Positions 1,063-12,350 of a DNA stretch of 31,957 nt are shown in pieces. Both the position numbers and the translations under genes were made by a program. Numbering within the stretch: the stretch's first letter is position 1; every line of letters starts with the position of its first letter. Location of the stretch: positions 1 to 31,957 of IMG/VR virus record IMGVR_UViG_3300032523_000802, one strand, 5' to 3'. Origin of the DNA: a virus. Under the pieces are notes generated by a model that was not told where the DNA came from, did not search any database, and saw nothing but the letters and a program-made list of their open reading frames with translations.

Positions 1063-1091
1063 ATTCTACCCGTAATAAAGCCTAATCACAA
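1063..1091 (-). promoter_or_regulatory. Core promoter, leaderless
   Basis: TTGTGA, 17-bp spacer ending TTTATTACGGG, TAGAAT; 7 nt to the ATG at 1055. Confidence 0.75.
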
Positions 1092-1188
1092 CTTTACAAA
1101 TACCAACTGTGACCTAACGGCCCCGATTGGATAAGTTAAATTTTTATATAACGGGGCTGAAACCCGCATATATGTACCTCAAGGTAGT

Positions 1189-1204
1189 ACGGTGGTGGAA
1201 AGGG
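1189..1204 (+). repeat. ACGGTGGTGGAAAGG element, copy 1
   Basis: Preceded by TACCTCAAGG. It lies 15 nt beyond the 3' end of the minus gene 1219-1398, in the gap before the promoter at 1063. The gap also holds two GCCCCG/CGGGGC words and no other gene. Confidence 0.75.
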
Positions 1205-1218
1205 TCTGTCAAACGGCG

Positions 1219-1398
1219 TTAGGTTAGATGTGTGCGACTATCTATGAGGTTTTCTAGTTCGGCTACCGTGTTCTTTAGTTCTTTTATTTCTCTGAGGTAT
1301 GAATCGCATAACGAGCGAACCTCGTTGTACCTGCTCGCCAGTGAGTCAAACTCAGCCTGTGTTGCTTTTTTCATTACTTTTTCCTCTACTTGTGCCAT
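1219..1398 (-). CDS. Coiled-coil protein, 59 aa
   Basis: Starts MAQVEEKVMKKATQAEFDSL and continues as an almost uninterrupted heptad-like helix (YLREIKELKNTVAELENLID). The ATG at 1398 is 7 nt from the -10 box TAGAAT, which favours it over the internal ATG at residue 9. It is probably an oligomerising accessory protein; function unknown. Confidence 0.65.
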   Translation of the reverse strand: MAQVEEKVMKKATQAEFDSLASRYNEVRSLCDSYLREIKELKNTVAELENLIDSRTHLT

Positions 1399-1405
1399 AT
1401 AGTTT

Positions 1406-1434
1406 ATTCTACCCGTAATAACGGTTAATCACAA
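1406..1434 (-). promoter_or_regulatory. Core promoter, leaderless, overlapping the helicase 3' end
   Basis: TTGTGA, 17 bp, TAGAAT; 7 nt to the ATG at 1398. The -35 box lies inside the last codons of the SNF2 helicase gene. Confidence 0.75.
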
Positions 1435-3372
1435 CTGTCCTTGATACAGCCCTAGTACTAACTGCGCACCAAGTTCTAGTTCGCTTTCGGGGCTACCGCC
1501 ATCTACCGCCGAATTGACAACTGAACGCTTTGACGAGATAAGTGAATATATTTCTTCGTCAATTGTGTCGGCACATAGCGCATAAGTAGCAGTTACTGAG
1601 CCCCGTTGCCCCATCCGATGTAAGCGGGAATAGGTCTGGTCAATATCAGCGGGAGTCCACGGTAATTCTACAAAAATAATATCTTGTGCGGCTGTCAATG
1701 TATGCCCTGTCTTGGCGGCTTGGATACTTAAAACAATAACGGCGACGGAAGAGTCTTCTTGGAACTTCTTTTTAACAGCCTCGACCTCGTCTGCTGACAT
1801 ACCACCTTGAATCTTCAGAGCACCCAACCGATTGGTCAAAGTATCAACTACATCGCGATGGTGTGCTGCGACTACAACTTTAGAACCGTTGGATATCCGG
1901 GACTGAACCCACTCAATCACGGATTCCATTTTTGCGTGCGCTGCTATGCGTCTCAAAACAGACAATCTTATTAAGTTTTGTGCTGACTCCGCCTTCATCC
2001 GTGCTCTGACACCTGCTGAGTGAGGTGACTGTCCGAGTTCTATGGCAATCTGTTTGGCTCTCTCTACTAGAAACGCAACTATGTCTGCTTCGGCTTTTCT
2101 GTATTCGGCCATTGGCCCCGCTGCGCCATCAAGAATAAGTCGTTGATGAAACACGGGTGGTAGGTCGGTGAGGACTTGTTCTTTTGTCCGTCTGATGTAA
2201 CATACGCTTCGGAGTTTTTCGTTTAACTCCTCAAGATTTGATGAACCTTCTAGATGCCATTGCCCATATCTGTCTTGGAAAGCATTACAGTACCTGCGGT
2301 AAAACCCCCACGCACCACCAAAGTCCTTTATCTTTCCTAGTATATCTAGTTGAGAAACATATTCGGCTGGTCTGTTGGTTACGGGTGTGCCTGTGAGCAA
2401 TAAGACAGGTGCGCCACTCGGGGCCGAAGACACAATCTTTTTTGCTGACTTGGAACGCTTGGCTGTCAGACTTTTACAATAATGACTTTCATCTAACACA
2501 TACGCCTTGTGCCCTTTGAGTTCGTTTTCCCAAAAAGTTATATTCGTGTAACCGATAACCAGAATGTCGTAAGTCCCGATGCTAGGGAATGGATTTTTCT
2601 CTCCCTTTCCGCTTTTAATAACTTCCACCTTGCGACTGGGTAACCATTTTTTGTATTCGGCTTTCCAATTCATAACTAGATTGGGTGGACACACCACAAC
2701 TGCTGGATAACTAATGTCTTTTAAGTGTTCAAGAGTCGCAATTGCTTGAATTGTTTTTCCTAATCCCATTTCATCAGCAATAAAAGTTCGTTTTGCTTTA
2801 GACGCATACAAAACACCCGCTTTTTGATATGGGAGTAGTGAACTATCTAGCCCCGTGTCACCGATATGTAACGACTCGGCTGATGTTGCTCGAGATGCGT
2901 CTTTCAATTCGGACAATTTTGTGTTGATATGTCCTGCCTGAACAACAATGTCGCTCGAAACTGGCATACCAAATGTCTCTCCCCACTTAATTGCTTCATT
3001 AATTGCCGTTAACGGGGCTCGCCACGCACGGGTCTTGCTATCCCAAGTTACTGAAGGTATTTGTTTGACTGAGCGCACCATGACTGGGTCGTAAGTGAAC
3101 GATATGTAGATTGTGTTGTCTTTAATAAACACGCCTGTATGAGGGGCGCCACTTCGTTTGGGTAGAGTGAATAAAATAACCTCATTATCTATAATGAATG
3201 AATATTTATCAGCAAACTCTCTGACATCAATAATACTTTCAATCGGGGCTCGCCATACGCGGGTGGCTTTGTCCCATTTACAACCGTTAATTCGTTTAAC
3301 TTCGGATACTTGGTTTGTGTCGTATGGGAAGTCTAATACGAGGTGGTTATTATCTAAGAATAAGCGAGACAC
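1429..3372 (-). CDS. SNF2-family DNA helicase/translocase with two HARP-like repeats
   Basis: 647 aa from GTG at 3372. Two similar segments near the N-terminus, each ending WDKATRVWRAP or WDSKTRAWRAP, resemble the HARP repeats of SMARCAL1-type annealing helicases. The motor follows: ADEMGLGKT (Walker A, about residues 199-207), DESH (about 294-297), LLTGTP (about 325-330), and in the second lobe QTYSRLHRMGQ (motif VI). It probably moves on double-stranded or forked DNA during replication or repair. I chose GTG 3372 because upstream codons overlap another gene and are compositionally odd, and because TAGAAT lies exactly 7 nt upstream. That -10 has neither a -35 box nor the ATTACGGG core, so coupling to the upstream gene (stop 5 nt away) is equally possible. 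Confidence 0.9.
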   Translation of the reverse strand: MSRLFLDNNHLVLDFPYDTNQVSEVKRINGCKWDKATRVWRAPIESIIDVREFADKYSFIIDNEVILFTLPKRSGAPHTGVFIKDNTIYISFTYDPVMVRSVKQIPSVTWDSKTRAWRAPLTAINEAIKWGETFGMPVSSDIVVQAGHINTKLSELKDASRATSAESLHIGDTGLDSSLLPYQKAGVLYASKAKRTFIADEMGLGKTIQAIATLEHLKDISYPAVVVCPPNLVMNWKAEYKKWLPSRKVEVIKSGKGEKNPFPSIGTYDILVIGYTNITFWENELKGHKAYVLDESHYCKSLTAKRSKSAKKIVSSAPSGAPVLLLTGTPVTNRPAEYVSQLDILGKIKDFGGAWGFYRRYCNAFQDRYGQWHLEGSSNLEELNEKLRSVCYIRRTKEQVLTDLPPVFHQRLILDGAAGPMAEYRKAEADIVAFLVERAKQIAIELGQSPHSAGVRARMKAESAQNLIRLSVLRRIAAHAKMESVIEWVQSRISNGSKVVVAAHHRDVVDTLTNRLGALKIQGGMSADEVEAVKKKFQEDSSVAVIVLSIQAAKTGHTLTAAQDIIFVELPWTPADIDQTYSRLHRMGQRGSVTATYALCADTIDEEIYSLISSKRSVVNSAVDGGSPESELELGAQLVLGLYQGQL

Positions 3373-3377
3373 GGTGC

Positions 3378-3533
3378 TTATTCTAGCCCCGCTTCGTCGC
3401 CTGCCCCTTCGGGTATCTGATAGCCGTCTATGTCGTGGTCTGAGTCGTGGTCTGGTATGGGTAGCCAACGCCAATCGTTTAAATTATGGGCTATCGGGGA
3501 GTTCGTCTCCCCGATAGTTTGACCTAACTTCAC
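3378..3533 (-). CDS. Small acidic protein, 51 aa
   Basis: GTG at 3533 overlaps the TGA of the upstream 41-aa gene (GTGA), and the stop is 5 nt before the helicase start. The reading frame includes WRWLPIPDHDSDHDIDGY and ends GDEAGLE, strongly acidic. An 11-bp inverted repeat lies inside the frame and encodes IGETNSPI, so the alternative is a non-coding terminator region. Coupling at both ends favours a gene. Confidence 0.45.
   Translation of the reverse strand: MKLGQTIGETNSPIAHNLNDWRWLPIPDHDSDHDIDGYQIPEGAGDEAGLE
3491..3517 (-). terminator. Perfect 11-bp hairpin, possible attenuator
   Basis: CTATCGGGGAG and its exact reverse complement enclose a 5-nt loop. No strong T tract follows on either strand. 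It sits within the proposed 51-aa gene and before the helicase, where it could terminate or attenuate the minus transcript. Confidence 0.45.
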
Positions 3534-3655
3534 TCGCCACCAAAGGGGACGAAGTCCACTTCGCCATTGTCGCAGGCTTGCGCTACACATTGTTGGCAAT
3601 CCATATTGCCCCACTCGTAGTGAGTCTCGGAATTCTTATGGCTATCGCATGGCAT
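3530..3655 (-). CDS. Small zinc-binding-type protein, 41 aa
   Basis: The frame reads MPCDSHKNSETHYEWGNMDC then QQCVAQACDNGEVDFVPFGGE. C3, H6, C20 and C23 could hold one zinc ion. An in-frame TAA just upstream fixes the ATG at 3655. A GGGAGG Shine-Dalgarno lies 11 nt before it, inside the structured leader at 3656-3711. It is the first gene of the operon leading into the helicase. Confidence 0.6.
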   Translation of the reverse strand: MPCDSHKNSETHYEWGNMDCQQCVAQACDNGEVDFVPFGGE

Positions 3656-3711
3656 AATTTACCTTGCCTCCCATCAGCGGGGAGGACTTTGTGTTTGGTT
3701 TGCTGATACTG
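3656..3711 (-). ncRNA. Structured 5' leader A: pseudoknot or alternative hairpins hiding the ribosome site
   Basis: In minus-strand RNA, ATCAGC (3702-3707) can pair with GCTGAT (3673-3678), and CCTCCC (3680-3685) with GGGAGG (3667-3672). The second GCTGAT strand lies in the loop of the CCTCCC/GGGAGG hairpin. GGGAGG is the Shine-Dalgarno of the next gene. A second copy at 6328-6385 keeps the A-rich linker AAACCAAACACAAAG while both helices change together. This resembles a translational riboswitch or protein-controlled leader. Ligand unknown. Confidence 0.6.
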
Positions 3712-3714
3712 ATA

Positions 3715-3743
3715 ACACTACCCGTAATAAGCCATAACGACAA
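3715..3743 (-). promoter_or_regulatory. Core promoter with a long leader
   Basis: TTGTCG, 17 bp ending CTTATTACGGG, TAGTGT. One of two core promoters not followed by a start codon at 7 nt; it feeds structured leader A. Confidence 0.7.
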
Positions 3744-3746
3744 CTT

Positions 3747-3766
3747 TGTGGATAACCTGTGGATAA
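3747..3766 (-). promoter_or_regulatory. Pair of DnaA boxes
   Basis: Two perfect TTATCCACA boxes on the minus strand (3747-3755 and 3758-3766), 11 bp start to start, beginning 4 bp upstream of the -35 box. Confidence 0.65.
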
Positions 3767-3841
3767 CTCTTCGTGCGTGCGCCCGCTAAAAAACGCCCGA
3801 GCAAGCCCCGATGGGAGACTCTAAAATTACAGCAAGGTACT

Positions 3842-3857
3842 ACGGTGGTGGAAAGGA
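3842..3857 (+). repeat. ACGGTGGTGGAAAGG element, copy 2
   Basis: Preceded by ATTACAGCAAGG. It lies 29 nt past the 3' end of the minus gene 3886-4218. The 3767-3841 stretch is GC-rich with an AGCCCCG word and no gene. Confidence 0.75.
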
Positions 3858-3885
3858 ATTTGTAGATAACAGATAGCGGGACTAA

Positions 3886-4218
3886 TTATTTTTTCTGCTT
3901 GAGTAATTTAGTAACTACCGATACCGCTTGCTTCCGTGTTTTATACGCACAATGACCACCGATATCATCAATTTTGAGACCACCATTATATTTTCTGATT
4001 GTGTAGAAGCGTGGGTTGGTATCCCGATATGAATCACGCTCACTAGTAATGAAATAACAGCCACCGTAAATTGTTGGCAGGATTCGGCTACTGAAGAATC
4101 GCATCGCTGATTCATCAAAGAAGTGTGAACCCGACGCCTTCGCTTCAGAAATTATTTCATCAATATTGTTATACATTTTCTTTTTTCCTAATTTAGGTTT
4201 CGTACTTGGTTTGCTCAC
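3886..4218 (-). CDS. Hypothetical basic protein, 110 aa
   Basis: GTG at 4218 is preferred over ATG at 4227, because that ATG overlaps the -10 box while GTG lies exactly 7 nt after it. Basic N-terminus (KPSTKPKLGKKK), then a compact domain with IYGGCYFITSERDSY and a lysine-rich end (VVTKLLKQKK). It may bind nucleic acid; no family recognised. Confidence 0.65.
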   Translation of the reverse strand: MSKPSTKPKLGKKKMYNNIDEIISEAKASGSHFFDESAMRFFSSRILPTIYGGCYFITSERDSYRDTNPRFYTIRKYNGGLKIDDIGGHCAYKTRKQAVSVVTKLLKQKK

Positions 4219-4225
4219 ATATATC

Positions 4226-4254
4226 ATCCTACCCGTAATAAGGTGTGTAAACGC
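4226..4254 (-). promoter_or_regulatory. Core promoter lacking a clear -35 box
   Basis: CTTATTACGGG followed by TAGGAT, 7 nt to GTG 4218. The -35 position reads GCGTTT, so the conserved spacer is kept without TTGNNN. Confidence 0.6.
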
Positions 4255-4320
4255 ACCAGTACAAACTAAATCCGGGGCTACATCGAGCCGGTGTGTCTTC
4301 GTTAGAAACGTATTACGAAA

Positions 4321-4800
4321 TTATAGCGTCAGATAACTTCGGTGAATTAGCCGAGTGTCAGCAGGAGAATACGACGCGACAGTCCCGAGTTCCCAAGCCT
4401 TATCGTAGTCAATGTAACCCCAAATATCAACTTCTCTCAGTTCAGGCATTGTAACTTTTGCTACGAATAAAACTAACTTTTTACCGACTTGTCGTTGCCG
4501 TACGGCAGCACTTTCCCCCGTACGAACACGGCGCACTTCTATATTAGCCCCGACATCCGCTATCTTGTCTTTGTATTGATTGTGTTGGCTAGCGTTCCAG
4601 ACGTGCCCTGCCCAATATCTATTCGTGTATTTAGCGACTGCTAATTCGCAGACCGCCGCAGCGACACACGCCGTGCGGTCGTCTTCCATCAGTTCTTTTT
4701 TGTAATACGAAGCATCTTTTTTGCCCCAGTTTTCTATGTACCTTCTAGTCCCGACGTGCGATGCCCACTCGTATTCAAAGGGCTCTAGTTGTACCAGCAT
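4321..4800 (-). CDS. Hypothetical protein, 159 aa
   Basis: Starts MLVQLEPFEYEWASHVGTRR. Contains RTACVAAAVCELAVAKYTNR, a helix, then a beta-rich half (KLVLFVAKVTMPELREVDIW). The length and the layout of a helix followed by strands with R-rich turns (EVRRVRTGESAAVRQRQVGKK) faintly recall a small nuclease-like fold, but I do not claim one. TAGAAT lies 6 nt upstream of the ATG. Confidence 0.75.
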   Translation of the reverse strand: MLVQLEPFEYEWASHVGTRRYIENWGKKDASYYKKELMEDDRTACVAAAVCELAVAKYTNRYWAGHVWNASQHNQYKDKIADVGANIEVRRVRTGESAAVRQRQVGKKLVLFVAKVTMPELREVDIWGYIDYDKAWELGTVASYSPADTRLIHRSYLTL

Positions 4801-4806
4801 AAAGTT

Positions 4807-4812
4807 ATTCTA
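4807..4812 (-). promoter_or_regulatory. -10 box, degenerate promoter
   Basis: TAGAAT 6 nt before the ATG at 4800, preceded by CTCCGA rather than ATTACGGG, and with no TTGNNN at -35. A leaderless start is still likely. Confidence 0.4.
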
Positions 4813-4824
4813 TCGGAGTACGGA

Positions 4825-4971
4825 CTATTCCTGTTCGCCTTCACAAAAACTAATCCAGTTTTCATCGTCACCTGCGTCAAGTCCGCGAGCCCCGCACCAA
4901 AGTTCGTAGCGATTTACTTTTGCGGTATTCTCTTTTGTGTTTCCGCTAAAGAATACGATTTGTGGTCTCAC
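4825..4971 (-). CDS. Small protein, 48 aa
   Basis: GTG at 4971 shares a base with the TAG of the upstream gene (TAGTG). Longer versions would overlap that gene by about 50 nt. Reads MRPQIVFFSGNTKENTAKVN, then RYELWCGARGLDAGDDENWI and an acidic end. Two cysteines. Function unknown. Confidence 0.5.
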   Translation of the reverse strand: MRPQIVFFSGNTKENTAKVNRYELWCGARGLDAGDDENWISFCEGEQE

Positions 4972-5174
4972 TAAATAACCCAGCCGAGTACCGAGTTTAT
5001 ATTCACGAACGAAAACCACGCTAAAAGCACAACCGAGATAAAGAGTTGTGGCGTGAATTTCTTGGTTTTACGGTAATTTTTTATATTCCTTATCGCCCAC
5101 CAAATTAAGGAAGTCCATAAGGTAATTCCGAATACAAAAATAAATATAACGAAAACGGTCATTCCATCAAGCAT
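4971..5174 (-). CDS. Two-pass membrane protein, 67 aa
   Basis: Hydrophobic segments at about residues 6-27 (TVFVIFIFVFGITLWTSLIW) and 45-65 (LFISVVLLAWFSFVN), with a basic loop KNYRKTKKF between. ATG at 5174 overlaps the upstream stop; ATG at 5162 (residue 5) is an alternative. Coupled downstream to the 48-aa gene. Function unknown. Confidence 0.65.
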   Translation of the reverse strand: MLDGMTVFVIFIFVFGITLWTSLIWWAIRNIKNYRKTKKFTPQLFISVVLLAWFSFVNINSVLGWVI

Positions 5175-5364
5175 CTAAGGTATCCAAGTCTTGAGCCTCA
5201 GCCCAAGCAAGTTCTTGTGCGGTTTCGTTGATTAAGGTATATTCAGGGTGGTCATATAAGTCGCAGTCAATATTGTAAATGCGACCTACTTCGCAGAGTT
5301 GCGTGTAAGCAATTTGTTCCCAATTTTCAATATCTTTCTCAACTGATTTAGTTTTGTTTGGCAT
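5167..5364 (-). CDS. Hypothetical acidic protein, 65 aa
   Basis: ATG at 5364, 7 nt after TAGGAT. Reads MPNKTKSVEKDIENWEQIAY and ends AQELAWAEAQDLDTLDA; largely helical and acidic. First gene of a three-gene operon with the membrane protein and the 48-aa protein. Confidence 0.65.
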   Translation of the reverse strand: MPNKTKSVEKDIENWEQIAYTQLCEVGRIYNIDCDLYDHPEYTLINETAQELAWAEAQDLDTLDA

Positions 5365-5371
5365 AGAAGTT

Positions 5372-5399
5372 ATCCTACCCGTAATAAAGCCTAATACAA
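5372..5399 (-). promoter_or_regulatory. Core promoter, leaderless, 16-bp spacer
   Basis: TTGTAT, 16-bp spacer with TTTATTACGGG, TAGGAT; 7 nt to the ATG at 5364. It is the only copy with a 16-bp spacer. Confidence 0.6.
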
Positions 5400-5401
5400 A
5401 C

Positions 5402-5578
5402 TTAATCATTAGACGGGTGTCTACTTGTGTCCACAACAGACCCAAACTCTTGTTTTGCCCACGCATCATATTCGTCTTCGGTCAAACTTTCCAACTCCGC
5501 CACAGACGGCTCGTAACCCCGGGGCCACCGTTGCCACACAGGAAGTGGAGGAAGTAATCTAAGGTGTCTATTTGGCAT
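5402..5578 (-). CDS. Small proline- and tryptophan-rich protein, 58 aa
   Basis: ATG at 5578 overlaps the end of the upstream 183-aa gene by 11 nt. Reads MPNRHLRLLPPLPVWQRWPR, then an acidic segment AELESLTEDEYDAWAKQEFG. Its stop is just upstream of the next promoter. No family recognised. Confidence 0.55.
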   Translation of the reverse strand: MPNRHLRLLPPLPVWQRWPRGYEPSVAELESLTEDEYDAWAKQEFGSVVDTSRHPSND

Positions 5579-6119
5579 TTATGAACTCAATAAACTCACA
5601 AACGGCAACTGCTATTTGTCCACCGATATCTTTTTTCTCTCCGTATTGTGTTTCTTCAAACTCAGGTAAGCCGTTATCGTTATATTTATAAGTAACTACG
5701 GCGTGACGCATCAGCCCCGAAGTACTAAATGCCAAGACGGTAACACACTCTTGGATATTTTTTGGATTTATACTAAACTCTTTATACACATCACCTTTTT
5801 TCAGATTACTCAAGTCTTCGTCAGAACTATTGGCTTTCTTTAGAAATGCTTCTGTGACTAGAGCCCCGTGAACGGGTGTCCCTAGTTCAGCCCACAATTC
5901 GTGTAGAAGAAACCCCATTACATCAGATAACGAAACATCGTCGTCTTTGGTGTGGTTTGGAAGTGGGATTAGCCGTAATCCTTCTTTCATCTCCCAAATA
6001 ATCAAAGGACAACCATCTGCGGGGCCCCCTGCGTACTCACATAGAGTGCGTTTTGCGGTTTGTGCCGTGCCCACAACTGCGTCTACGAACTGTAAAAATT
6101 CTCCATTATTTTTCTTCAT
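5568..6119 (-). CDS. Hypothetical protein, 183 aa
   Basis: Starts MKKNNGEFLQFVDAVVGTAQ. Soluble, with a GGPADGCPLIIWEMKEGLRL segment, a helical middle, and TVLAFSTSGLMRHAVVTYKY near the C-terminus. The alternating strands and helices suggest one compact domain. ATG at 6119 lies 6 nt after a TAGACT -10 box. Function unknown. Confidence 0.75.
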   Translation of the reverse strand: MKKNNGEFLQFVDAVVGTAQTAKRTLCEYAGGPADGCPLIIWEMKEGLRLIPLPNHTKDDDVSLSDVMGFLLHELWAELGTPVHGALVTEAFLKKANSSDEDLSNLKKGDVYKEFSINPKNIQECVTVLAFSTSGLMRHAVVTYKYNDNGLPEFEETQYGEKKDIGGQIAVAVCEFIEFINAK

Positions 6120-6125
6120 AACTAC

Positions 6126-6154
6126 AGTCTACCCGTAATAAGAACACTCATAGT
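6126..6154 (-). promoter_or_regulatory. Core promoter without a -35 box
   Basis: CTTATTACGGG then TAGACT, 6 nt to the ATG at 6119. The -35 position (ACTATG) is inside the 59-aa gene and does not match. Confidence 0.55.
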
Positions 6155-6327
6155 CCCCCGACCGTGAGTATCACTTCGTCAGACACGATTGCGAGCGAGT
6201 CAAACTTGCCTGCCCCAATCTTTTGGACTATCACTCGTAGGTGGTCATCATGTCCCACGACCCTGCCAGTAATAGTGTCGCCACTATTATCCGTATAGGT
6301 AATTTTGGTGTTTTCAAGTATTTTCAT
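6148..6327 (-). CDS. Small beta-rich protein, 59 aa
   Basis: Reads MKILENTKITYTDNSGDTIT, then GRVVGHDDHLRVIVQKI and SDEVILTVGGL. The strand pattern suits a small SH3- or Sm-like barrel, but that is only a guess. ATG at 6327 is 12 nt past the GGGGG ribosome site in structured leader B. Confidence 0.6.
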   Translation of the reverse strand: MKILENTKITYTDNSGDTITGRVVGHDDHLRVIVQKIGAGKFDSLAIVSDEVILTVGGL

Positions 6328-6385
6328 AATTTGCTTTCGCCCCCAATCGGCTGGGGGACTTTGTGTTTGGTTTGCCGATAGTTCC
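6328..6385 (-). ncRNA. Structured 5' leader B (second copy of leader A)
   Basis: ATCGGC (6374-6379) pairs with GCCGAT (6346-6351), and CCCCC (6353-6357) with GGGGG (6340-6344). The linker AAACCAAACACAAAGTCC and the end GCAAATTATG match leader A, apart from small changes, while each helix has changed on both sides. GGGGG would serve as the Shine-Dalgarno and is hidden in one fold. Confidence 0.6.
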
Positions 6386-6414
6386 ACTCTATCCGTAATA
6401 AGGGTCAATGACAA
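6386..6414 (-). promoter_or_regulatory. Core promoter with a long leader
   Basis: TTGTCA, 17 bp ending CTTATTACGGA, TAGAGT. It transcribes structured leader B. Confidence 0.7.
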
Positions 6415-6416
6415 CC

Positions 6417-6437
6417 TGTGGATAACTCTGTGGATAA
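6417..6437 (-). promoter_or_regulatory. Pair of DnaA boxes
   Basis: Perfect TTATCCACA boxes at 6417-6425 and 6429-6437, 12 bp start to start, 3 bp upstream of the -35 box. An alternating purine-pyrimidine run (about 6446-6471) follows. Confidence 0.65.
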
Positions 6438-6502
6438 CTCTCTCGTGCGCGTGTGTGCGTGCGTGTGCGCGCGGGGCTGCGTAAATATTACAGCAAGGTC
6501 TT

Positions 6503-6518
6503 ACGGTGGCGGAAAGGA
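6503..6518 (+). repeat. ACGGTGGCGGAAAGG element, copy 3
   Basis: Preceded by ATTACAGCAAGG; one base differs (GGC for GGT). Downstream on the same strand come a start-stop ATGTAA at 6524 and the 40-aa gene at 6540. Confidence 0.75.
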
Positions 6519-6539
6519 ACATTAATGTAAAATATTTAT

Positions 6540-6662
6540 GTGAGCGACAAACCTGAAGAACCGGCCAAGAGCCCCGACGAGATTCTTGTTATTGAGAAAG
6601 AAATTCAAGTCCCACGCTTTGTTTTACAAATGCCACAGAGCGGAAGTTGCTGTCCTAAATAA
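6540..6662 (+). CDS. Small plus-strand protein, 40 aa, Cys-Cys tail
   Basis: GTG at 6540 lies 6 nt after TAAAAT (6528-6533), suggesting a leaderless start. Reads MSDKPEEPAKSPDEILVIEK and ends PQSGSCCPK. It is convergent with the minus gene ending at 6667 and is the only plus-strand gene found in the first 16.7 kb. Function unknown. Confidence 0.5.
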   Translation: MSDKPEEPAKSPDEILVIEKEIQVPRFVLQMPQSGSCCPK

Positions 6663-6666
6663 AACT

Positions 6667-7026
6667 TTAATTAGTGTGAGGCTTGTCTTCCCATTGACCC
6701 AACACGGGATATTGAACGATACCCATTTCTGTTAATCGCCAAGCAAACTTACAACAAGGCGTCACATCAGAGCAGGAATGTTGCCCCGCATTTATTGTCT
6801 CCGCTAGTCTTGGGAAAAGATTAAAAAGTTTGACTATACAATCGTGGCACAAAAACCAACGGCGAGACTGACGAGAATCCATTAGTAGTTGTATGTCGTC
6901 AGTAAAGCCACCATAATAACCGAAAAGTTCATATGGTAACGCCCAACCATTATCAATGATTCCGTCTTCGGGGCTCACAGTTCCGCCCCCACAAGCCGTA
7001 CAAGCAACACCTGTTGCCACCGTCAT
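6667..7026 (-). CDS. Zinc-finger-type hypothetical protein, 119 aa
   Basis: C9 and C12 (VACTACGGG) and a later CHDC pair (WFLCHDCIVKLF) could bind zinc. A third cysteine group, HSCSDVTPCC, follows. ATG 7026 abuts the stop of the upstream gene. Last gene of the operon from 7492. No catalytic motif seen. Confidence 0.7.
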   Translation of the reverse strand: MTVATGVACTACGGGTVSPEDGIIDNGWALPYELFGYYGGFTDDIQLLMDSRQSRRWFLCHDCIVKLFNLFPRLAETINAGQHSCSDVTPCCKFAWRLTEMGIVQYPVLGQWEDKPHTN

Positions 7027-7260
7027 TTACTCAGCCTTATGTGGTGTTATTTTATTCCCGATAGTCCCAAACGATTCACTAATTGACTTAGGGTAATTTA
7101 AGTTTTGTATATTTTTTCGGGACTCCGATGTGTGGTTATCAGCAAGTACCTGTACCCGCATTTTCTCTACTGCTTTTATCCGCATAGAGAGTTCGGCAAC
7201 TTTGGTTTCTAATTCGTCAAGTAAGTAAAGTAGGTTTTGGATATCTTCGGCTCGTTCCAT
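7027..7260 (-). CDS. Coiled-coil protein, 77 aa
   Basis: Starts MERAEDIQNLLYLLDELETK with a leucine-rich heptad helix to about residue 36, then a polar tail with SRKNIQNLNYPKS. It sits 1 nt after the 76-aa gene in the same operon. Function unknown. Confidence 0.65.
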   Translation of the reverse strand: MERAEDIQNLLYLLDELETKVAELSMRIKAVEKMRVQVLADNHTSESRKNIQNLNYPKSISESFGTIGNKITPHKAE

Positions 7261-7261
7261 T

Positions 7262-7492
7262 TCATAAGCCTATCACCGTGTGTAATTTTGCGTTACAGAC
7301 GATATCTGTTGTAATTGACAACAACTCGGCGACTAATTCTGTATAGGTAATCCCCATCTCTCCGAGCCACTCAGCATCAAAGCGGTCATTAAGTAAGTCA
7401 TCCCACATAGACGCTATTGCGCCTAACCCTGTTGCGCCTATGCTGAGATAGTTCTCGGCAAGGACTTCTGATAGTGATACATCTTCTGCCAT
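7262..7492 (-). CDS. Hypothetical acidic protein, 76 aa
   Basis: Starts MAEDVSLSEVLAENYLSIGA; mostly helical, acidic, with one cysteine near the end (DIVCNAKLHTV). ATG at 7492 is 7 nt after TAACAT. Heads the three-gene operon to 6667. Confidence 0.65.
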   Translation of the reverse strand: MAEDVSLSEVLAENYLSIGATGLGAIASMWDDLLNDRFDAEWLGEMGITYTELVAELLSITTDIVCNAKLHTVIGL

Positions 7493-7495
7493 AGG

Positions 7496-7759
7496 TTATA
7501 TGTTACCCGTAATAAACGGTAACTCCACCTGCTCAGCCAAGTCTGTTTCCGACAATCCGTCTAGCCCCGCCACGAACTCAATGGCTTTCTCAACTTCATC
7601 ACGCTCTATCAGTTCAGATAGTTGGTAAATTAGTTTCTCCGCTAAATTAAACTCTTTCGTGCTGTGTGCGGTAGTAGCCAACACAAGCCCCATAACGAAC
7701 CTTTCGTAGTTCGTGGTTGGCATAGGTGCTTCCATTAGGTAAGTCTGAGTGTTTCTCAT
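7496..7759 (-). CDS. Hypothetical protein, 87 aa, with the next promoter inside its 3' end
   Basis: Starts MRNTQTYLMEAPMPTTNYER, mostly helical, ending VELPFITGNI. The last ten codons contain the ATTACGGG promoter of the following gene, so the C-terminus is set partly by that signal. The ATG overlaps the upstream stop by one base (TGATG). No family recognised. Confidence 0.7.
   Translation of the reverse strand: MRNTQTYLMEAPMPTTNYERFVMGLVLATTAHSTKEFNLAEKLIYQLSELIERDEVEKAIEFVAGLDGLSETDLAEQVELPFITGNI
7500..7528 (-). promoter_or_regulatory. Core promoter inside coding sequence
   Basis: TTTATTACGGG then TAACAT, 7 nt to the ATG at 7492. The -35 position is GTGGAG, a poor match. Confidence 0.55.
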
Positions 7760-8019
7760 CAGTAAGCCCCGTCGGTGTCGTCGCAGAACGGCTCAAGGTG
7801 TAGGTTCTCAACGATAAAGGCAACCGTGCGAGACAACCCATTAGGCATATCTAGCACGGTATCCCACTCGCCTGCGTTGGCGCAAGCGATAACCTGCTCA
7901 CACAACGGCACGAATACTTCGTGGACTGGTGGATAGTGATTGCCCTGTAAGTGCCATTTAAGTTTGACACTTAACGGGATATCCACTTCTCCAATAGATT
8001 CCGCAGTCAGTTTACCCAT
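7759..8019 (-). CDS. Hypothetical protein, 86 aa
   Basis: Starts MGKLTAESIGEVDIPLSVKL, contains HEVFVPLCEQVIACANAGEW and ends HLEPFCDDTDGAY. TAATG overlap with the KTSC gene upstream and TGATG overlap downstream place it in the middle of a three-gene operon. Function unknown. Confidence 0.7.
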   Translation of the reverse strand: MGKLTAESIGEVDIPLSVKLKWHLQGNHYPPVHEVFVPLCEQVIACANAGEWDTVLDMPNGLSRTVAFIVENLHLEPFCDDTDGAY

Positions 8020-8237
8020 TAGTTAATCCTGAGATAATCGTGATTAGGCTTGATTAGCGTGTTGATTGCGCCACCATAGGTCTCGGACTTCTTGACGCTA
8101 CGCCAAGTGTTAGGTTGGACTTTGGCGTAGATATAACGCCCACCATTACGATATTCCACCGTAAGGGTCTTGTCTTTGCGCCCATAGCGCATTGACGCTA
8201 TGGCTTTGCTCTTTCGTGTTTTGATAAAGTTTCTCAT
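8019..8237 (-). CDS. KTSC-domain protein, 72 aa
   Basis: The sequence SKAIASMRYGRKDKTLTVEY followed by NGGRYIYAKVQPNTW and SYGG-like KSETYGGAINTLIK matches the layout of the KTSC domain: a short strand pair, a GG(x)Y turn, then a helix before the final beta segment. The role of this family is unknown. ATG 8237 is 7 nt after TAGAGT; longer frames would run back through the promoter. First gene of the operon to 7496. Confidence 0.75.
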   Translation of the reverse strand: MRNFIKTRKSKAIASMRYGRKDKTLTVEYRNGGRYIYAKVQPNTWRSVKKSETYGGAINTLIKPNHDYLRIN

Positions 8238-8244
8238 ATGTTTC

Positions 8245-8273
8245 ACTCTACCCGTAATAAGGGGTAACGGCAA
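8245..8273 (-). promoter_or_regulatory. Core promoter, leaderless
   Basis: TTGCCG, 17 bp, TAGAGT; 7 nt to ATG 8237. Confidence 0.75.
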
Positions 8274-8276
8274 CCT

Positions 8277-8296
8277 TGTGGATAACCTGTGGATAA
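8277..8296 (-). promoter_or_regulatory. Pair of DnaA boxes
   Basis: Perfect TTATCCACA at 8277-8285 and 8288-8296, 11 bp start to start, beginning 3 bp from the -35 box. Confidence 0.65.
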
Positions 8297-8318
8297 CTCC
8301 CCTATACGCGCGCGCGAG

Positions 8319-8342
8319 CGCAGGCGCACGCCGGGGCCTGCG
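8319..8342 (-). terminator. GC-rich hairpin between operons
   Basis: CGCAGGC and GCCTGCG enclose a 10-nt loop, next to a CGCGCGCGCG run. No T tract on the minus strand, so termination is uncertain. Confidence 0.4.
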
Positions 8343-8363
8343 TGGATATTACAGCAAGGCACT

Positions 8364-8379
8364 ACGGTGGTGGAAAGGA
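8364..8379 (+). repeat. ACGGTGGTGGAAAGG element, copy 4
   Basis: Preceded by ATTACAGCAAGG; directly abuts the 3' end of the minus gene 8380-8571. Confidence 0.75.
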
Positions 8380-8571
8380 CTAAACTTCCGCCACACCCAT
8401 ACGGATAACATCCCACATAGCATCCCAAGTCCCGCTCACAACTGGTGATTGGAATAGGATTGCGGTTGGTTCGTCGCCGTGCCAAACGGTAATTGTGCCG
8501 TTGCTTAACTCTACCTTGATAGACGCTGAGCCTCTCTCAAGTTCTTGCTTCTCTGTTGTTGTTTCGCTCAT
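8380..8571 (-). CDS. Hypothetical protein, 63 aa
   Basis: Starts MSETTTEKQELERGSASIKV, then strand-rich ELSNGTITVWHGDEPTAILF and a C-terminal helix with WDAMWDVIRMG. ATG 8571 is 7 nt after TAGGAT. Function unknown. Confidence 0.65.
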   Translation of the reverse strand: MSETTTEKQELERGSASIKVELSNGTITVWHGDEPTAILFQSPVVSGTWDAMWDVIRMGVAEV

Positions 8572-8578
8572 AGTTATT

Positions 8579-8607
8579 ATCCTACCCGTAATAAGGCATA
8601 ACGACAA
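8579..8607 (-). promoter_or_regulatory. Core promoter, leaderless
   Basis: TTGTCG, 17 bp ending CTTATTACGGG, TAGGAT; 7 nt to ATG 8571. Confidence 0.75.
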
Positions 8608-8614
8608 CCTGTGC

Positions 8615-8893
8615 TTATTGTATAATCGGCATCACGATAATTGGTGTTCGCTCTCCGACCCAAGCCCCGATACAGTTGTAACTGATATATTCATCTGCTT
8701 CCTCATAAGTCATACCGTCTCTCTCTATACAGACTTTCATCATTAACTCCCACGAATAGACAGCAAGGCGGGGCTCGTTAATGCGTTGCGAATGACCGAT
8801 AAAGGCTTCATCAAAGCCATCCATTAACAGCGCATCGGCTTCATCCATTTCCATAAAGGCTTCGCTGATTATTTCTCTTGTTGGAATTACCAT
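8615..8893 (-). CDS. Hypothetical acidic protein, 92 aa
   Basis: Starts MVIPTREIISEAFMEMDEAD; helical and acidic, with RDGMTYEEADEYISYNCIGA in the centre and a hydrophobic end PIIVMPIIQ. ATG 8893 overlaps the stop of the 42-aa gene by 7 nt. Function unknown. Confidence 0.7.
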   Translation of the reverse strand: MVIPTREIISEAFMEMDEADALLMDGFDEAFIGHSQRINEPRLAVYSWELMMKVCIERDGMTYEEADEYISYNCIGAWVGERTPIIVMPIIQ

Positions 8894-9015
8894 TTGTTTT
8901 TTATTTTACACGCAGTCTTAGATACTTCCTTACGCTTATCGGGAATTGTTTTAGCACGATTGCGAGCCCCGTCTCCGAACGCCCGTCTATCTGCTAGCGA
9001 CCATTTGTTTTTCAC
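8887..9015 (-). CDS. Very basic small protein, 42 aa
   Basis: GTG at 9015 overlaps the TGA of the upstream gene (GTGA). Reads MKNKWSLADRRAFGDGARNR then AKTIPDKRKEVSKTACKIKNKW. The charge suggests nucleic acid binding. The KNKW string occurs at both ends. Confidence 0.5.
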   Translation of the reverse strand: MKNKWSLADRRAFGDGARNRAKTIPDKRKEVSKTACKIKNKW

Positions 9016-9308
9016 TCTTTCCACGCTTCCATTGTGAATACCCCTGCGATTGGATTAGGATATTTAATAATATCATTTACCCAGCGTTCAGCGTCAGAGT
9101 GTTGTGTCTCGCAGTCTCTAAAGTGCTTAGAGTATCTGCCGTCATTATCGCTTTTGCTACGCACAATTACTATCGCTATCTCATTAGTCTTAGTGTCGTG
9201 CCATACCGATACCTGATACACGCACTCAATTGAGCCCCAGTTGTCAGCCTTGTCAAAGGTGATTGAGTAGGTTGCGCCAAGTGGCGATGCTAGTGTCTGT
9301 TTAGTCAT
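9012..9308 (-). CDS. Hypothetical protein, 98 aa
   Basis: Starts MTKQTLASPLGATYSITFDK, continues with strands YQVSVWHDTKTNEIAIVIVR and a helix ending FTMEAWKE. ATG 9308 is 7 nt after TAGAAT. Heads the operon 9308 to 8615. Function unknown. Confidence 0.7.
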   Translation of the reverse strand: MTKQTLASPLGATYSITFDKADNWGSIECVYQVSVWHDTKTNEIAIVIVRSKSDNDGRYSKHFRDCETQHSDAERWVNDIIKYPNPIAGVFTMEAWKE

Positions 9309-9315
9309 AAGTTTT

Positions 9316-9344
9316 ATTCTACCCGTAATAAGGGGCAATGCCTA
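9316..9344 (-). promoter_or_regulatory. Core promoter, leaderless, weak -35
   Basis: CTTATTACGGG then TAGAAT; 7 nt to ATG 9308. The -35 position reads TAGGCA and overlaps the stop of the preceding gene. Confidence 0.6.
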
Positions 9345-9554
9345 CTCAGGCTCTTGTAACATACGGCAAGGCTCGTTATAGCAGTACTCAGTACCACGAC
9401 CCGTTACATAAGTGTCGCCTGCGTAGTACCATTGTTGGCAACTAGAGCATTGGTAGAGAGTTATCTCATCTGTACCATCGTGATTGAGTGTAACCATATC
9501 TCCACACTCGTCTAAATAACGGTCAGCGACCGCAATTGGTTGTGAATTAGTCAT
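9342..9554 (-). CDS. Zinc-ribbon-type protein, 70 aa
   Basis: Starts MTNSQPIAVADRYLDECGDM. Cysteines occur as CSSC (LYQCSSCQQWY) and then CYNEPC near the end, a plausible four-cysteine zinc site. ATG 9554 is 7 nt after TAGAGT. Function unknown. Confidence 0.7.
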   Translation of the reverse strand: MTNSQPIAVADRYLDECGDMVTLNHDGTDEITLYQCSSCQQWYYAGDTYVTGRGTEYCYNEPCRMLQEPE

Positions 9555-9561
9555 AGTTATC

Positions 9562-9590
9562 ACTCTACCCGTAATAAGAACTAACGGCAA
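9562..9590 (-). promoter_or_regulatory. Core promoter, leaderless
   Basis: TTGCCG, 17 bp, TAGAGT; 7 nt to ATG 9554. Confidence 0.75.
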
Positions 9591-9593
9591 CCC

Positions 9594-9602
9594 TGTGGAT
9601 AA
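9594..9602 (-). promoter_or_regulatory. Single DnaA box
   Basis: Perfect TTATCCACA, 3 bp upstream of the -35 box. Confidence 0.55.
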
Positions 9603-9639
9603 CTATTAACGGGACTCGCTGTGCGTTTTAATTTAAGTC

Positions 9640-9670
9640 AGTCTAGGGGGCCCCGCCCCTTAGACTTTTT
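9640..9670. terminator. Probable bidirectional terminator
   Basis: AGTCTA-GGGG pairs with CCCC-TAGACT (one bulged T), 6-nt loop, followed by TTTTT on the plus strand; AAAAA precedes it on the minus strand. It lies 30 nt past the minus gene 9700-10158. Confidence 0.55.
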
Positions 9671-9683
9671 ACAGCAAGGTCTT

Positions 9684-9697
9684 ACGGTGGCGGAAAG
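9684..9697 (+). repeat. ACGGTGGCGGAAAG element, copy 5
   Basis: Preceded by TTTACAGCAAGG; 2 nt from the 3' end of the minus gene 9700-10158. Confidence 0.7.
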
Positions 9698-9699
9698 CC

Positions 9700-10158
9700 T
9701 TACCCCATTAGTGAGAGTAAGGCATCACCAAGCGCACCACGACCTTCGTCATTTACCATTAGTTCATCTGAACCCATACGCATAGCAGTAACAAGTTGTT
9801 GTTTTCTGTTAGCGAATACTAACAACGCAACTCGTTTGCGCTCAGGGTGCTGGCTAGGTGGCAAGTCATCATCATCACCATTACTTTGGGTAGGTGAAGC
9901 CCAACCACAAGTGAATAGAGCGAGTAAGTCTGTGTGTGAAGCCATATCTTGGACTTCGTCAGTCTCAAGTAGGTCATACACATCACGACCTGACTGAATA
10001 TCAGCCGTGTTGATATCGCCGTTGATTACTGGCGCTATCCAAGCGTGGCTGTTTTCGGTACTTATGTCATTTGCGTTAGTTGGTAAATACTTGTCACCAA
10101 GTGTTTCCACTAATCTTTTGAGTTGTAAGTGCTTAGCGTATTTGTTTGTTTTTGTCAT
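9700..10158 (-). CDS. Hypothetical protein, 152 aa
   Basis: Starts MTKTNKYAKHLQLKRLVETL. Middle part TDLLALFTCGWASPTQSNGD then an acidic loop DDDDLPP, a basic PERKRVALLVFANRKQQLV and a Gly-rich end. The pattern suggests a two-part helical protein. ATG 10158 is 7 nt after TAGAGT. Function unknown. Confidence 0.75.
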   Translation of the reverse strand: MTKTNKYAKHLQLKRLVETLGDKYLPTNANDISTENSHAWIAPVINGDINTADIQSGRDVYDLLETDEVQDMASHTDLLALFTCGWASPTQSNGDDDDLPPSQHPERKRVALLVFANRKQQLVTAMRMGSDELMVNDEGRGALGDALLSLMG

Positions 10159-10165
10159 AAGTAAC

Positions 10166-10194
10166 ACTCTACCCGTAATAAGAAGTAATCACAA
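10166..10194 (-). promoter_or_regulatory. Core promoter, leaderless
   Basis: TTGTGA, 17 bp, TAGAGT; 7 nt to ATG 10158. Confidence 0.75.
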
Positions 10195-10197
10195 CTA

Positions 10198-10371
10198 TTA
10201 GTTGTCGTGGGGGATAGATGTCAAAATTAGATACGCACTAATCCCGAATAAAATTAAAAATCCTAAAGGAGATGGAATTGGTGTAGATGCGTCTCCCTCA
10301 AACCCACCCATACAAATAATGGCCCCGATTAAAAAGACGAAGCCAAGCGAGCCTCTAAGGCGACTACTCAT
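10198..10371 (-). CDS. Two-pass membrane protein, 57 aa
   Basis: ATG 10371 overlaps the TGA of the upstream gene (ATGA). Starts MSSRLRGSLGFVFLIGAIIC. Hydrophobic segments at about residues 8-23 and 36-52 (GFLILFGISAYLILT) flank a short acidic loop. Function unknown. Confidence 0.6.
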   Translation of the reverse strand: MSSRLRGSLGFVFLIGAIICMGGFEGDASTPIPSPLGFLILFGISAYLILTSIPHDN

Positions 10372-10883
10372 ATCGTTGCTTTCTCAAACGGACACTCAGC
10401 ACGCTCGCCAAATACAGTCTCATAGAGTTCACGACCATTTTCCCACGAACCGTATCCGTCAGGAAAATTAGGGTTGCCATCCCAATCGCCGTCAGATGAG
10501 ATGCGGACACAAGAGCCGTAGATAACTTTAGCCCTAATGAGTATCGCCGTGATTACTGCGTCATAGGGCTTATAGGCAGTCTTACAGAAATTAAAGAAGT
10601 CGGGTTCAGTTTTGCGCCACTCGGACTGCTCGGGGATACCTGCCCAATAAAAAGTTTCGTGCGCTAAGTCTCGCCCCTCATCACTAAACGCCTCAGCGTC
10701 TCCGTTAATGGAGAAACTAAACTCTGTGAACTCGGGTTCGCCCAAGCCCTCGCCATTACGAATACGAATACCGTTGGCATTGGCGTAGTCGCATAGTTTC
10801 TTAGCGTCTAACGCTAACTTGCCATAGAAATAGGCAGAGCCTGCGTTCTTGACTGGTCGGGATATGTAATGTGTGTAACCCAT
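10368..10883 (-). CDS. Phage-conserved hypothetical protein (MGYTHY family), 171 aa
   Basis: The opening MGYTHYISRPVK resembles a family seen in many phages whose members begin MGYTHY, of unknown role. It continues with a helical part, then DFFNFCKTAYKPYDAVITAI and a C-terminal stretch rich in acidic and aromatic residues (DGDWDGNPNFPDGYGSWENG). ATG 10883 is 7 nt after TAGCGT. The family name is from memory, not from a search. Confidence 0.75.
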   Translation of the reverse strand: MGYTHYISRPVKNAGSAYFYGKLALDAKKLCDYANANGIRIRNGEGLGEPEFTEFSFSINGDAEAFSDEGRDLAHETFYWAGIPEQSEWRKTEPDFFNFCKTAYKPYDAVITAILIRAKVIYGSCVRISSDGDWDGNPNFPDGYGSWENGRELYETVFGERAECPFEKATI

Positions 10884-10886
10884 ATG

Positions 10887-11120
10887 TTACACGCTACCCG
10901 CAATAAGAGTTTTAAGCAACTGCTCTGTCTGTGGCTCTGCCCCTTGTGGGAGTTGTAGTTCTATATCCCTAGAAAGAAATAGGGTTATCTCAAACTTTTC
11001 GCCGTTTTCTTGTGTGGCAGTTACTGTGAGAGTAGTGAAGTTATAGTTCTTACCACTATGGTAGTTTTCTAGTTTTTTCTCAATTTTCGTAACATTATGA
11101 ATTGTCATTGAAGTTGTCAT
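10887..11120 (-). CDS. Hypothetical protein, 77 aa
   Basis: Starts MTTSMTIHNVTKIEKKLENY, then strands NFTTLTVTATQENGEKFEIT and a polar C-terminus. ATG 11120 is 7 nt after TAGCAT. Its last codons (TLIAGSV) are formed by the downstream promoter. Function unknown. Confidence 0.65.
   Translation of the reverse strand: MTTSMTIHNVTKIEKKLENYHSGKNYNFTTLTVTATQENGEKFEITLFLSRDIELQLPQGAEPQTEQLLKTLIAGSV
10891..10919 (-). promoter_or_regulatory. Core promoter, leaderless, variant core
   Basis: TTGCTT, 17 bp ending CTTATTGCGGG (A to G in the core), TAGCGT; 7 nt to ATG 10883. Embedded in the 3' end of gene 10887-11120. Confidence 0.7.
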
Positions 11121-11127
11121 AGTTTCA

Positions 11128-11156
11128 ATGCTACCCGTAATAAGAGGTAATCACAA
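11128..11156 (-). promoter_or_regulatory. Core promoter, leaderless
   Basis: TTGTGA, 17 bp, TAGCAT; 7 nt to ATG 11120. Confidence 0.75.
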
Positions 11157-11360
11157 CTAGAATAACGGGTCTTGCTCACGCTTCTCATCAGCCCCGACGC
11201 AGAAGTCGTGGCGATATTGGTAGTGTTCTGTTTCTACTAGAACTAAATTGCGGGACTGCGCCCTCAGCCAACCTGACACGAACCGTAAAGTCATTGACGA
11301 TTTTGGGTCAATACTAAGCCCGCATTTGTCGCAGGTGAATAGGTTTGGGAGTTGCCCCAT
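11157..11360 (-). CDS. Small protein with a CxxC pair, 67 aa
   Basis: Starts MGQLPNLFTCDKCGLSIDPK; C10 and C13 form a zinc knuckle, and HDFC near the end could complete the site. It follows the stop of the 121-aa gene by 3 nt. Function unknown. Confidence 0.65.
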   Translation of the reverse strand: MGQLPNLFTCDKCGLSIDPKSSMTLRFVSGWLRAQSRNLVLVETEHYQYRHDFCVGADEKREQDPLF

Positions 11361-11363
11361 TTA

Positions 11364-11729
11364 CTAACTAACCAACTCCCCAACTTCTATTCGGTTGTGA
11401 GGCTTGAGTTTGACCACCTGAGACACGACATCATTTGAGATGTCGCCACTTGTCTCTGCTTGTGTGAACGCTTTTGTATCCACTTTAACTTCGGTGATTT
11501 TCTCAAAGACTTCTTGAGAGACGAGATTTTTGAGAGTGAGTACATCAAAGGTACGGTTATTGACCGTAATCATACTGACTACTCCCCCAGTTGTCTCAAT
11601 GCGCTTTATGTCGTTGCTTGCGAACGCTTGCTCAACGAGAGTTTTCATCTCAGCGAGTTTTGCTTCTGCTTCCTTGTAAGCCTTTCGTGCCTCAAGGTAT
11701 TGTTCGGCAATTGTTTGTGTGTTTGTCAT
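11364..11729 (-). CDS. Hypothetical protein with N-terminal coiled coil, 121 aa
   Basis: Residues 1-35 (EARKAYKEAEAKLAEMKTLV) form a coiled coil; then GGVVSMITVNNRTFDVLTLK begins a small mixed domain. The combination recalls nuclease- or recombination-accessory proteins of phages, but I cannot name a family. ATG 11729 is 7 nt after TAGCGT. Confidence 0.7.
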   Translation of the reverse strand: MTNTQTIAEQYLEARKAYKEAEAKLAEMKTLVEQAFASNDIKRIETTGGVVSMITVNNRTFDVLTLKNLVSQEVFEKITEVKVDTKAFTQAETSGDISNDVVSQVVKLKPHNRIEVGELVS

Positions 11730-11732
11730 AAG

Positions 11733-11987
11733 TTACACGCTACCCGTAATAAGAGGTAAGTCCAACTCCGCTAAAAACTTCTTTTTACAACTGTGGCAAT
11801 ATGGGATTGGTTTGAGTTTTTGTCCTCTGTCCTCAAATGCCCACACGCCCATAGACGCACCACTTCGCCTGCTCATATCCTCAACGAGTTGGCTAACTGT
11901 GTGATAAACATATTCGCCACGATTGTCGCAAGTGTGGCACTCTGCTCGCCAACCGAAACCAAAAAGAGCAGGTTCTTTCTTAATCAC
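11733..11987 (-). CDS. Four-cysteine zinc-ribbon protein, 84 aa
   Basis: GTG at 11987. Cysteine pairs CHTC (about residue 18) and CHSC (about residue 65) make a plausible zinc ribbon around a helix. The C-terminus LDLPLITGSV is encoded by the promoter of the next gene. The start overlaps the upstream stop by 8 nt. Confidence 0.65.
   Translation of the reverse strand: MIKKEPALFGFGWRAECHTCDNRGEYVYHTVSQLVEDMSRRSGASMGVWAFEDRGQKLKPIPYCHSCKKKFLAELDLPLITGSV
11737..11765 (-). promoter_or_regulatory. Core promoter, leaderless, inside coding sequence
   Basis: TTGGAC, 17 bp, TAGCGT; 7 nt to ATG 11729. Confidence 0.7.
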
Positions 11988-12201: not shown

Positions 12202-12208
12202 AAGTTTC

Positions 12209-12237
12209 ACTCTATCCGTAATAAGAGGTAATAGCAA
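12209..12237 (-). promoter_or_regulatory. Core promoter, leaderless
   Basis: TTGCTA, 17 bp, TAGAGT; 7 nt to ATG 12201. Upstream, AGCCCCG (about 12264) and CGGGGCT (about 12290) form an inverted pair. Confidence 0.7.
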
Positions 12238-12341: not shown

Positions 12342-12350
12342 CAACCTTTC

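Follow-up and report, generated by a model that had tools for sequence, protein, structure and literature searches.

Two leader sequences on the minus strand of a viral DNA of 31,957 nucleotides (IMG/VR record IMGVR_UViG_3300032523_000802, the whole of which is called the window below) raise the question of what a structured RNA could be doing in front of small phage genes. An earlier note had predicted two interlocked helices and an unchanged A-rich linker in both of them, and this was confirmed: copy A (3707–3667) reads ATCAGC-AAACCAAACACAAAGT-CCTCCC-C-GCTGAT-GGGAGG and copy B (6379–6340) reads ATCGGC-AAACCAAACACAAAGT-CCCCCA-GCCGAT-TGGGGG, with compensatory changes in the helices and an identical linker. 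In copy A, the first helix (S1) joins ATCAGC (S1-5′, 3702–3707) to GCTGAT (S1-3′, 3673–3678), the latter lying inside the hairpin loop of the second helix (S2), whose strands are CCTCCC (S2-5′, 3680–3685, defined by alignment and pairing) and GGGAGG (S2-3′, 3667–3672). The A/C-rich linker of 16 nt (3686–3701) separates S1-5′ from S2-5′. S2-3′ is also the strongest SD-like match of this leader, 11 nt from the ATG, and it is followed by the tail CAAGGTAAATT (3656–3666) with a weak second SD (AAGG), by a Cys-containing ORF of 41 aa (MPCDSHKNSETHYEWGNMDCQQCVAQACDNGEVDFVPFGGE, 3533–3655) and, next on the same strand, by the ORF of an SNF2-type helicase (1429–3474). Copy B consists of ATCGGC (S1-5′, 6374–6379), the linker (6358–6373, by alignment), CCCCCA (S2-5′, 6352–6357, by alignment and pairing), GCCGAT (S1-3′, 6346–6351, inside the S2 loop) and TGGGGG (S2-3′, 6340–6345), the G-run of which, 12 nt from the ATG, is the only stretch that makes a good SD-like match, so that the start codon lies 11–12 nt past S2-3′ in the two copies. 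The ORF after copy B (6151–6327) encodes 59 aa and is unrelated to that of copy A.

A search with the exact linker led to a second phage contig (IMGVR_UViG_3300013372_003612, referred to as G001) with two further copies, C and D; exact and degenerate linker patterns found the element in this contig only among the viral contigs. The linker of C is identical to that of A and B and the linker of D differs by one change, and this near-identity shows that the module was copied recently. All 36 pair cells of the A–D alignment (three distinct rows of 12 pairs) are standard, and three pairs, one in S1 and two in S2, are changed on both sides. S1 shows one A-U/G-C exchange and a U-A/U-G change (U-G in D), while S2 shows one C-G/U-A exchange and another pair that is C-G, A-U, or G-C depending on the copy. 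When the partner columns were slid by 1–3 positions as a control, 33–59% of the cells were paired and there were no double changes, which supports the claim made earlier that the compensatory changes reflect a selected RNA structure. The shuffle control for A–D was modest (8–18 of 500) because only three distinct rows are available, thus the main weight rests on independent lineages.

Such lineages were reached beyond G001 via the helicase behind copy A. Its relative in L013 (77% identical) is accompanied by two leaders (E and F) with S1 GTCACC/GGTGAC and S2 helices of 10–12 pairs, that in L014 (70%) by one leader (G) with S1 CGCCCGC/GCGGGCG and S2 CGCGACC/GGTCGCG, and that in L065 (72%) by two leaders (H and I) with S1 GTCGGGC/GCCCGAC and long S2 helices; the same two leaders are present in L066. 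The layout is therefore wider than the window: with seven additional leaders, nine are known in five related phage genomes, namely A and B in the window, C and D in G001, and E–I in the three phages just named, every relative being a metagenomic contig. The lack of further homologs had been named in the earlier note as an argument against a selected structure; homologs were found in G001, L013, L014, and L065. In E–I both helices are entirely replaced relative to A–D and the sequence is unlike theirs, while order, spacing, and position are unchanged. The common order is S1-5′, an A/C-rich linker, S2-5′, S1-3′ within the S2 loop and S2-3′, that is, a pseudoknot topology, and all nine leaders follow the H-type succession S1-5′, L1, S2-5′, L2, S1-3′, L3, S2-3′. 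The linker measures 11–17 nt with an A + C content of 71–92%, L2 0–5 nt and L3 0–4 nt.

Interlocked helices alone are not rare, a bare two-helix descriptor giving 1–3 chance matches per shuffled strand. Scanning the relatives with this descriptor and no promoter anchor gave no excess over the control (45 vs. 42), and matches such as L097-2205 were for this reason not accepted. When S1 was required to begin no more than 1 nt from the first base of the leader, behind a promoter, the score of eight leaders was reached by none of 3000 shuffles and that of leader G by 10 of 3000. A conserved two-helix layout is thus strongly supported by the sequence comparisons. Three matches of the promoter-plus-leader pattern in L032–L034 lacked the helices and were discarded as chance matches, the leaders at L057+15820 and L060+11582 look structured yet fall outside the layout, and promoter-anchored scans of other arrays (G008, G009, G016, and L136–L188) gave no additional credible knot.

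The position of the leaders is defined by their promoters. Every leader sits behind one of about 10–30 near-identical phage promoters that form an array in the respective genome. In the window, CTTATTACGGRTAG occurs in 27 copies with at most two mismatches, compared with 0.4 expected by chance, and the array extends over 1066–18518 (approximately 27 sites). Each copy belongs to a promoter of the form TTGTC-N17-TANNNT and is found in its spacer of 17 nt or at its −10 edge. Copy A follows the hexamers TTGTCG (3738–3743) and TAGTGT (3715–3720), which are separated by a 17-nt spacer, with the array motif CTTATTACGGGTAG at 3718–3731; copy B follows TTGTCA (6409–6414) and TAGAGT (6386–6391) with the motif CTTATTACGGATAG at 6389–6402 (all on the minus strand and recognised by their place in the array). 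The relatives have arrays of their own, for example CTAATAACGGATA in L013, CATAATAACCGATA in L014, TACCATTAGTRCC in L065, and TAATAANGGATA in G016, and others. Lineage-own arrays of mostly leaderless promoters were also seen in L013, L014, L057, L059, L060, L065, and L136–L188; each lineage has a spacer motif of its own, as would be expected if a phage regulator used it as operator. Repeats next to gene starts have been described in cluster K mycobacteriophages, where the 13-bp SAS repeat GGGATAGGAGCCC is found next to the start codon of many non-structural genes and about half of the SAS copies are preceded by an imperfect inverted repeat, the ESAS (17 bp with a 4–13 bp spacer) (PMC3203893). 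Both cases are lineage-specific repeats at gene starts in an actinophage, but SAS and ESAS were not described as two interlocked helices at a transcript start (PMC3203893) and are closer to the promoter array than to the leader; the SAS sequence itself is absent from the leaders.

Most array promoters drive apparently leaderless genes, which makes the start site inferable. The ATG is mostly found about 7 nt past the −10 box in the window, that is, at the expected +1, and 21 of 24 leaderless start codons are located 11 nt after the array motif. A script listed 159 promoters in nine related genomes and classed 132 of them as leaderless by a start codon at +1; as two of these belong to the knot leaders F and H, and one (window 16626−) looks non-coding, the number of leaderless promoters is rather about 129. 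F and H were filed there because an ATG overlaps their first bases, and their layout was assigned by eye; a reading frame from this 5′-terminal AUG may be possible, and that of F runs in frame into the ORF. The knot was found at 9 of approximately 29 leadered promoters and at none of approximately 130 leaderless transcripts of the nine genomes. The phage of L065 has 22 promoters, only two of which are leadered, and both carry the knot. With +1 taken from the start codon position of the leaderless promoters, the first base of S1 is within one nucleotide of it in all nine leaders (at 3707 in A and 6379 in B), and leader G has one unpaired A ahead of S1. Transcription of the leaders would accordingly start at the first S1 base, and the predicted RNA has 0–1 free nucleotides at its 5′-end.

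Whether the two helices form together or exclude each other was addressed by folding energies and geometry. The earlier note had leaned toward alternative helices rather than a true pseudoknot. Of eight leaders evaluated, all but G had an S2 that was more stable alone than S1 alone, by 4–17 kcal/mol; this imbalance argues against a balanced switch, and a pseudoknot needs both helices. S1 is kept at 6–7 pairs despite total sequence replacement. The junctions are 0–1 nt in A–D, which excludes classical H-type stacking and would require a kissing-loop-like stacking, where S1-3′ would run on into S2-3′ and the linker would bridge the far ends. Fully paired loops of 6–7 nt occur in kissing complexes. 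In E–G the junctions are 4–5 and 2–4 nt, and pose no problem for a pseudoknot. The retention of S1 and the roomy junctions of E–G favour simultaneous formation of S1 and S2, with which the computed energies and the junction lengths appear compatible, and together with the dominance of S2 they speak against the alternatives proposed earlier.

Considering these results, we put forward, as the best single account though somewhat short of probable, that the leader is a 5′-terminal pseudoknot which seals the end of the RNA and stabilizes the transcript. Transcription from the phage promoter would start at the first base of S1, and S1-5′, followed by the unstructured A/C-rich linker, would pair with the S2 hairpin loop. 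The 5′-triphosphate end would thereby be buried with 0–1 free nucleotides directly upstream of the ribosome site, and the sealed end would be expected to resist RppH-like pyrophosphohydrolases and the 5′-end-dependent RNases E and J. The few leadered transcripts of the phage could be stabilized in this way while the SD just 3′ of S2 would remain usable. The start of S1 at the inferred +1 in all nine leaders supports such a seal, as a riboswitch or an SD lock needs no such position. The stabilizing function is suggested by analogy with known 5′-terminal stem-loops, of which the ompA type of E. coli is an example. In the DrrS RNA of Mycobacterium tuberculosis, the first base of a 5′ stem-loop is the +1, the half-life is hours, extra unpaired 5′ nucleotides are destabilizing, and the stem-loop raised reporter expression three-fold (PMC5360333). 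The phage leaders resemble the DrrS and ompA-type structures in their predicted pairing from +1 and lack of a free 5′-end, in their place at the transcript start and in being gene-independent; they differ in that the 5′ strand pairs with a downstream hairpin loop via an A/C-rich linker, in adjoining an SD and in being found in phages. Sealing alone could be had more simply from an ordinary hairpin at the 5′-end, which leaves room for a further role of the knot, and sealing is evidently not obligatory, since some leadered transcripts of the same phages have short leaders without structure (L031 8260−, 8047−, and 5824−). Two leaders of G009 (L060), at about 1869+ and 2683+, share a 5′-terminal hairpin UAGAUGG…CCAUCGGUG near the inferred +1, which is possibly a plain stem-loop version of an end seal.

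The main rival, unlikely but to be taken seriously mainly because of A, B, and I, is translational control, in which the pseudoknot or an S1/S2 switch would mask the SD until a ligand, a phage protein, or an incoming ribosome opened it; its models are the gene 32 pseudoknot of phage T4 and the small SD-masking riboswitches. Every knot ends 0–3 nt ahead of the SD region, the strongest anti-SD match of A and B is in S2-3′, and the AAGGAG of I overlaps the outer S2 pairs; the best SD overlapping S2 would favour translational control in these three leaders. An SD-like motif is nevertheless present just 3′ of S2, and outside it, in seven of the nine leaders: the weak AAGG in A, AAAGGA in C, AGGAG in D, GGAG in E (13 nt from the ATG), AGGAG in F, AAGGGG in G, and AGGGAGG (downstream) in H. 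The best SD is in a helix of the element, as in an SD-masking riboswitch, only in B and I and partly in A, hence the suggestion that the leader hides the ribosome site stands in part for A, B, and I and fails as a general description. The shared property is the buried 5′-end and not SD hiding, because seven leaders have an SD-like motif outside S2.

The genes behind the leaders also bear on translational control, and on the riboswitch-like or protein-sensing element envisaged in the earlier note. The seven downstream ORFs compared (A–G, 37–79 aa) are mutually unrelated at E ≤ 1e-4, do not form one gene family or pathway of the kind expected behind a riboswitch and are not metabolic; several contain Cys and others do not. 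Copies B and C are upstream of homologous neighbours (an ORF of 183 aa, 44% identical), and their own ORFs differ. Gene F carries the knot in one phage, while its ortholog in G001 (76%) follows a leader that is short and plain. A gene-specific riboswitch or sensor is therefore unlikely, and a general leader module, as expected of a 5′-end seal, is favoured. The T4 gene 32 translational operator is a pseudoknot through which one gene is autoregulated by its own product; it shares with the elements described here the location in a phage mRNA leader upstream of the ribosome site, whereas the latter lie at the extreme 5′-end and precede genes unrelated to one another. We know of no gene 32-like regulator protein for the phage knot leaders. 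The preQ1-I/II and SAM-II riboswitches are similar in size (approximately 40 nt), in having two interlocked helices and an A-rich loop, and in being near the SD; the leaders differ from them by a long first-loop linker, by an SD mostly outside the element, by downstream genes that are not related metabolic ones and by the lack of a conserved binding core or an Rfam match. Scanning the whole window with Rfam 15 at gathering thresholds (including preQ1, SAM-II, and other riboswitches) gave no match, leader A had none even at E ≤ 5, and the sole match of the L013 leaders was a chance one to an unrelated snoRNA (15.9 bits), in agreement with the earlier impression of a new-looking leader.

A further and improbable explanation is start-site discrimination: in phages whose transcripts mostly begin with AUG at +1, the knot would hide the 5′-end and its near-cognate AUC or GUC from 70S ribosomes and force initiation at the internal SD. 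The AUG of the leaderless transcripts is indeed replaced in the leadered RNAs by AUC, GUC, or ACG at the same position. In leaderless genes, the first 16 nt after codon 2 have an A + C content of 56–80% compared with 48–52% in the genome and are as A/C-rich as the linker; the richness of the linker is therefore not special, and the leader resembles a leaderless start that has been modified. However, AUC is also the start of knot-free plain leaders in these phages, and it is a poor leaderless start anyway. It is more doubtful still that the knot is a binding site for a phage RNA-binding protein or for an anti-decay or antitermination factor: the architecture persists through changes of sequence and A–D have almost the same linker, but the lineages share no sequence beyond A/C richness and no candidate protein emerged. 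It is very improbable, and largely refuted by E–I, that the leader acts at the DNA level (as an operator or as a signal for replication or recombination) or is a copied repeat that does nothing as RNA, for although the array itself is DNA-level and A–D are recent copies with the same linker, the compensatory changes (including the U-A to U-G pair in D), an order that is fixed with respect to +1 and SD, and the occurrence in three lineages with unrelated sequence oppose it.

With the sealed 5′-end as the preferred reading, the layout, covariation, promoter position, and gene independence are the features that comparison supports. Neither the window nor any of three leaders had a DNA match among the GenBank phages in BLAST searches, and no description of leaderless phage genes with pseudoknots was found in the open-licence literature. 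The viruses probably infect Actinomycetota, as the closest cultured relatives of the helicase are in Arthrobacter phages (34%), and its sole relative in a set of bacterial genomes is in an Actinomycetota MAG (55%). Actinophage 5′-terminal pseudoknots may, as a possibility slightly less likely than the seal itself, represent a previously undescribed class, in which a structural end seal would make a promoter of the leaderless type yield a transcript that has a leader and resists decay, the architecture being selected and the sequence free. If confirmed, this would provide a pseudoknot seal that is compact and portable and could serve in expression constructs for Actinomycetota, and it would allow a clean test of how mRNA decay in these bacteria depends on whether the first nucleotide is paired. 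The leaders are in addition the mark of a large uncultured phage group, in which genomes are governed by arrays of phage-specific and mostly leaderless promoters, and transcripts from one promoter type form natural pairs of leaderless, plainly leadered, and knotted ones.

Several other features were noted in the window and its relatives. Array promoters also appear to produce non-coding RNAs (window 16626− to about 16540, L013 9799+, L014 12179−, and L213 2382−). Those of L014 and L213 are closely homologous and adjoin the helicase gene, the L013 RNA closes, in computed folds, with a strong terminator hairpin and a T run, and the window RNA had no Rfam match in the whole-window gathering scan. 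Several array promoters, among them those of A and B, are immediately preceded by paired DnaA-box-like repeats TTATCCACA (window 3744–3770, 6416–6440, 8270–8300, and 9590–9605). The 12-mer ACGGTGGYGGAA is present in 11 copies on the plus strand of the window (e.g., 3845, 6506, 8367, and 21093) and in none on the minus strand, although the genes occupy both strands. The same polarity was observed in 12 related loci with diverged promoter arrays (4–9 copies, none on the other strand and none for the reversed controls). The 12-mer looks like a genome-orienting signal of the Chi, KOPS, or packaging type. At the contig end (31851–31957), a 12-nt tandem repeat similar to TTGTAGTACTGG falls within a long minus-strand ORF or at its end.
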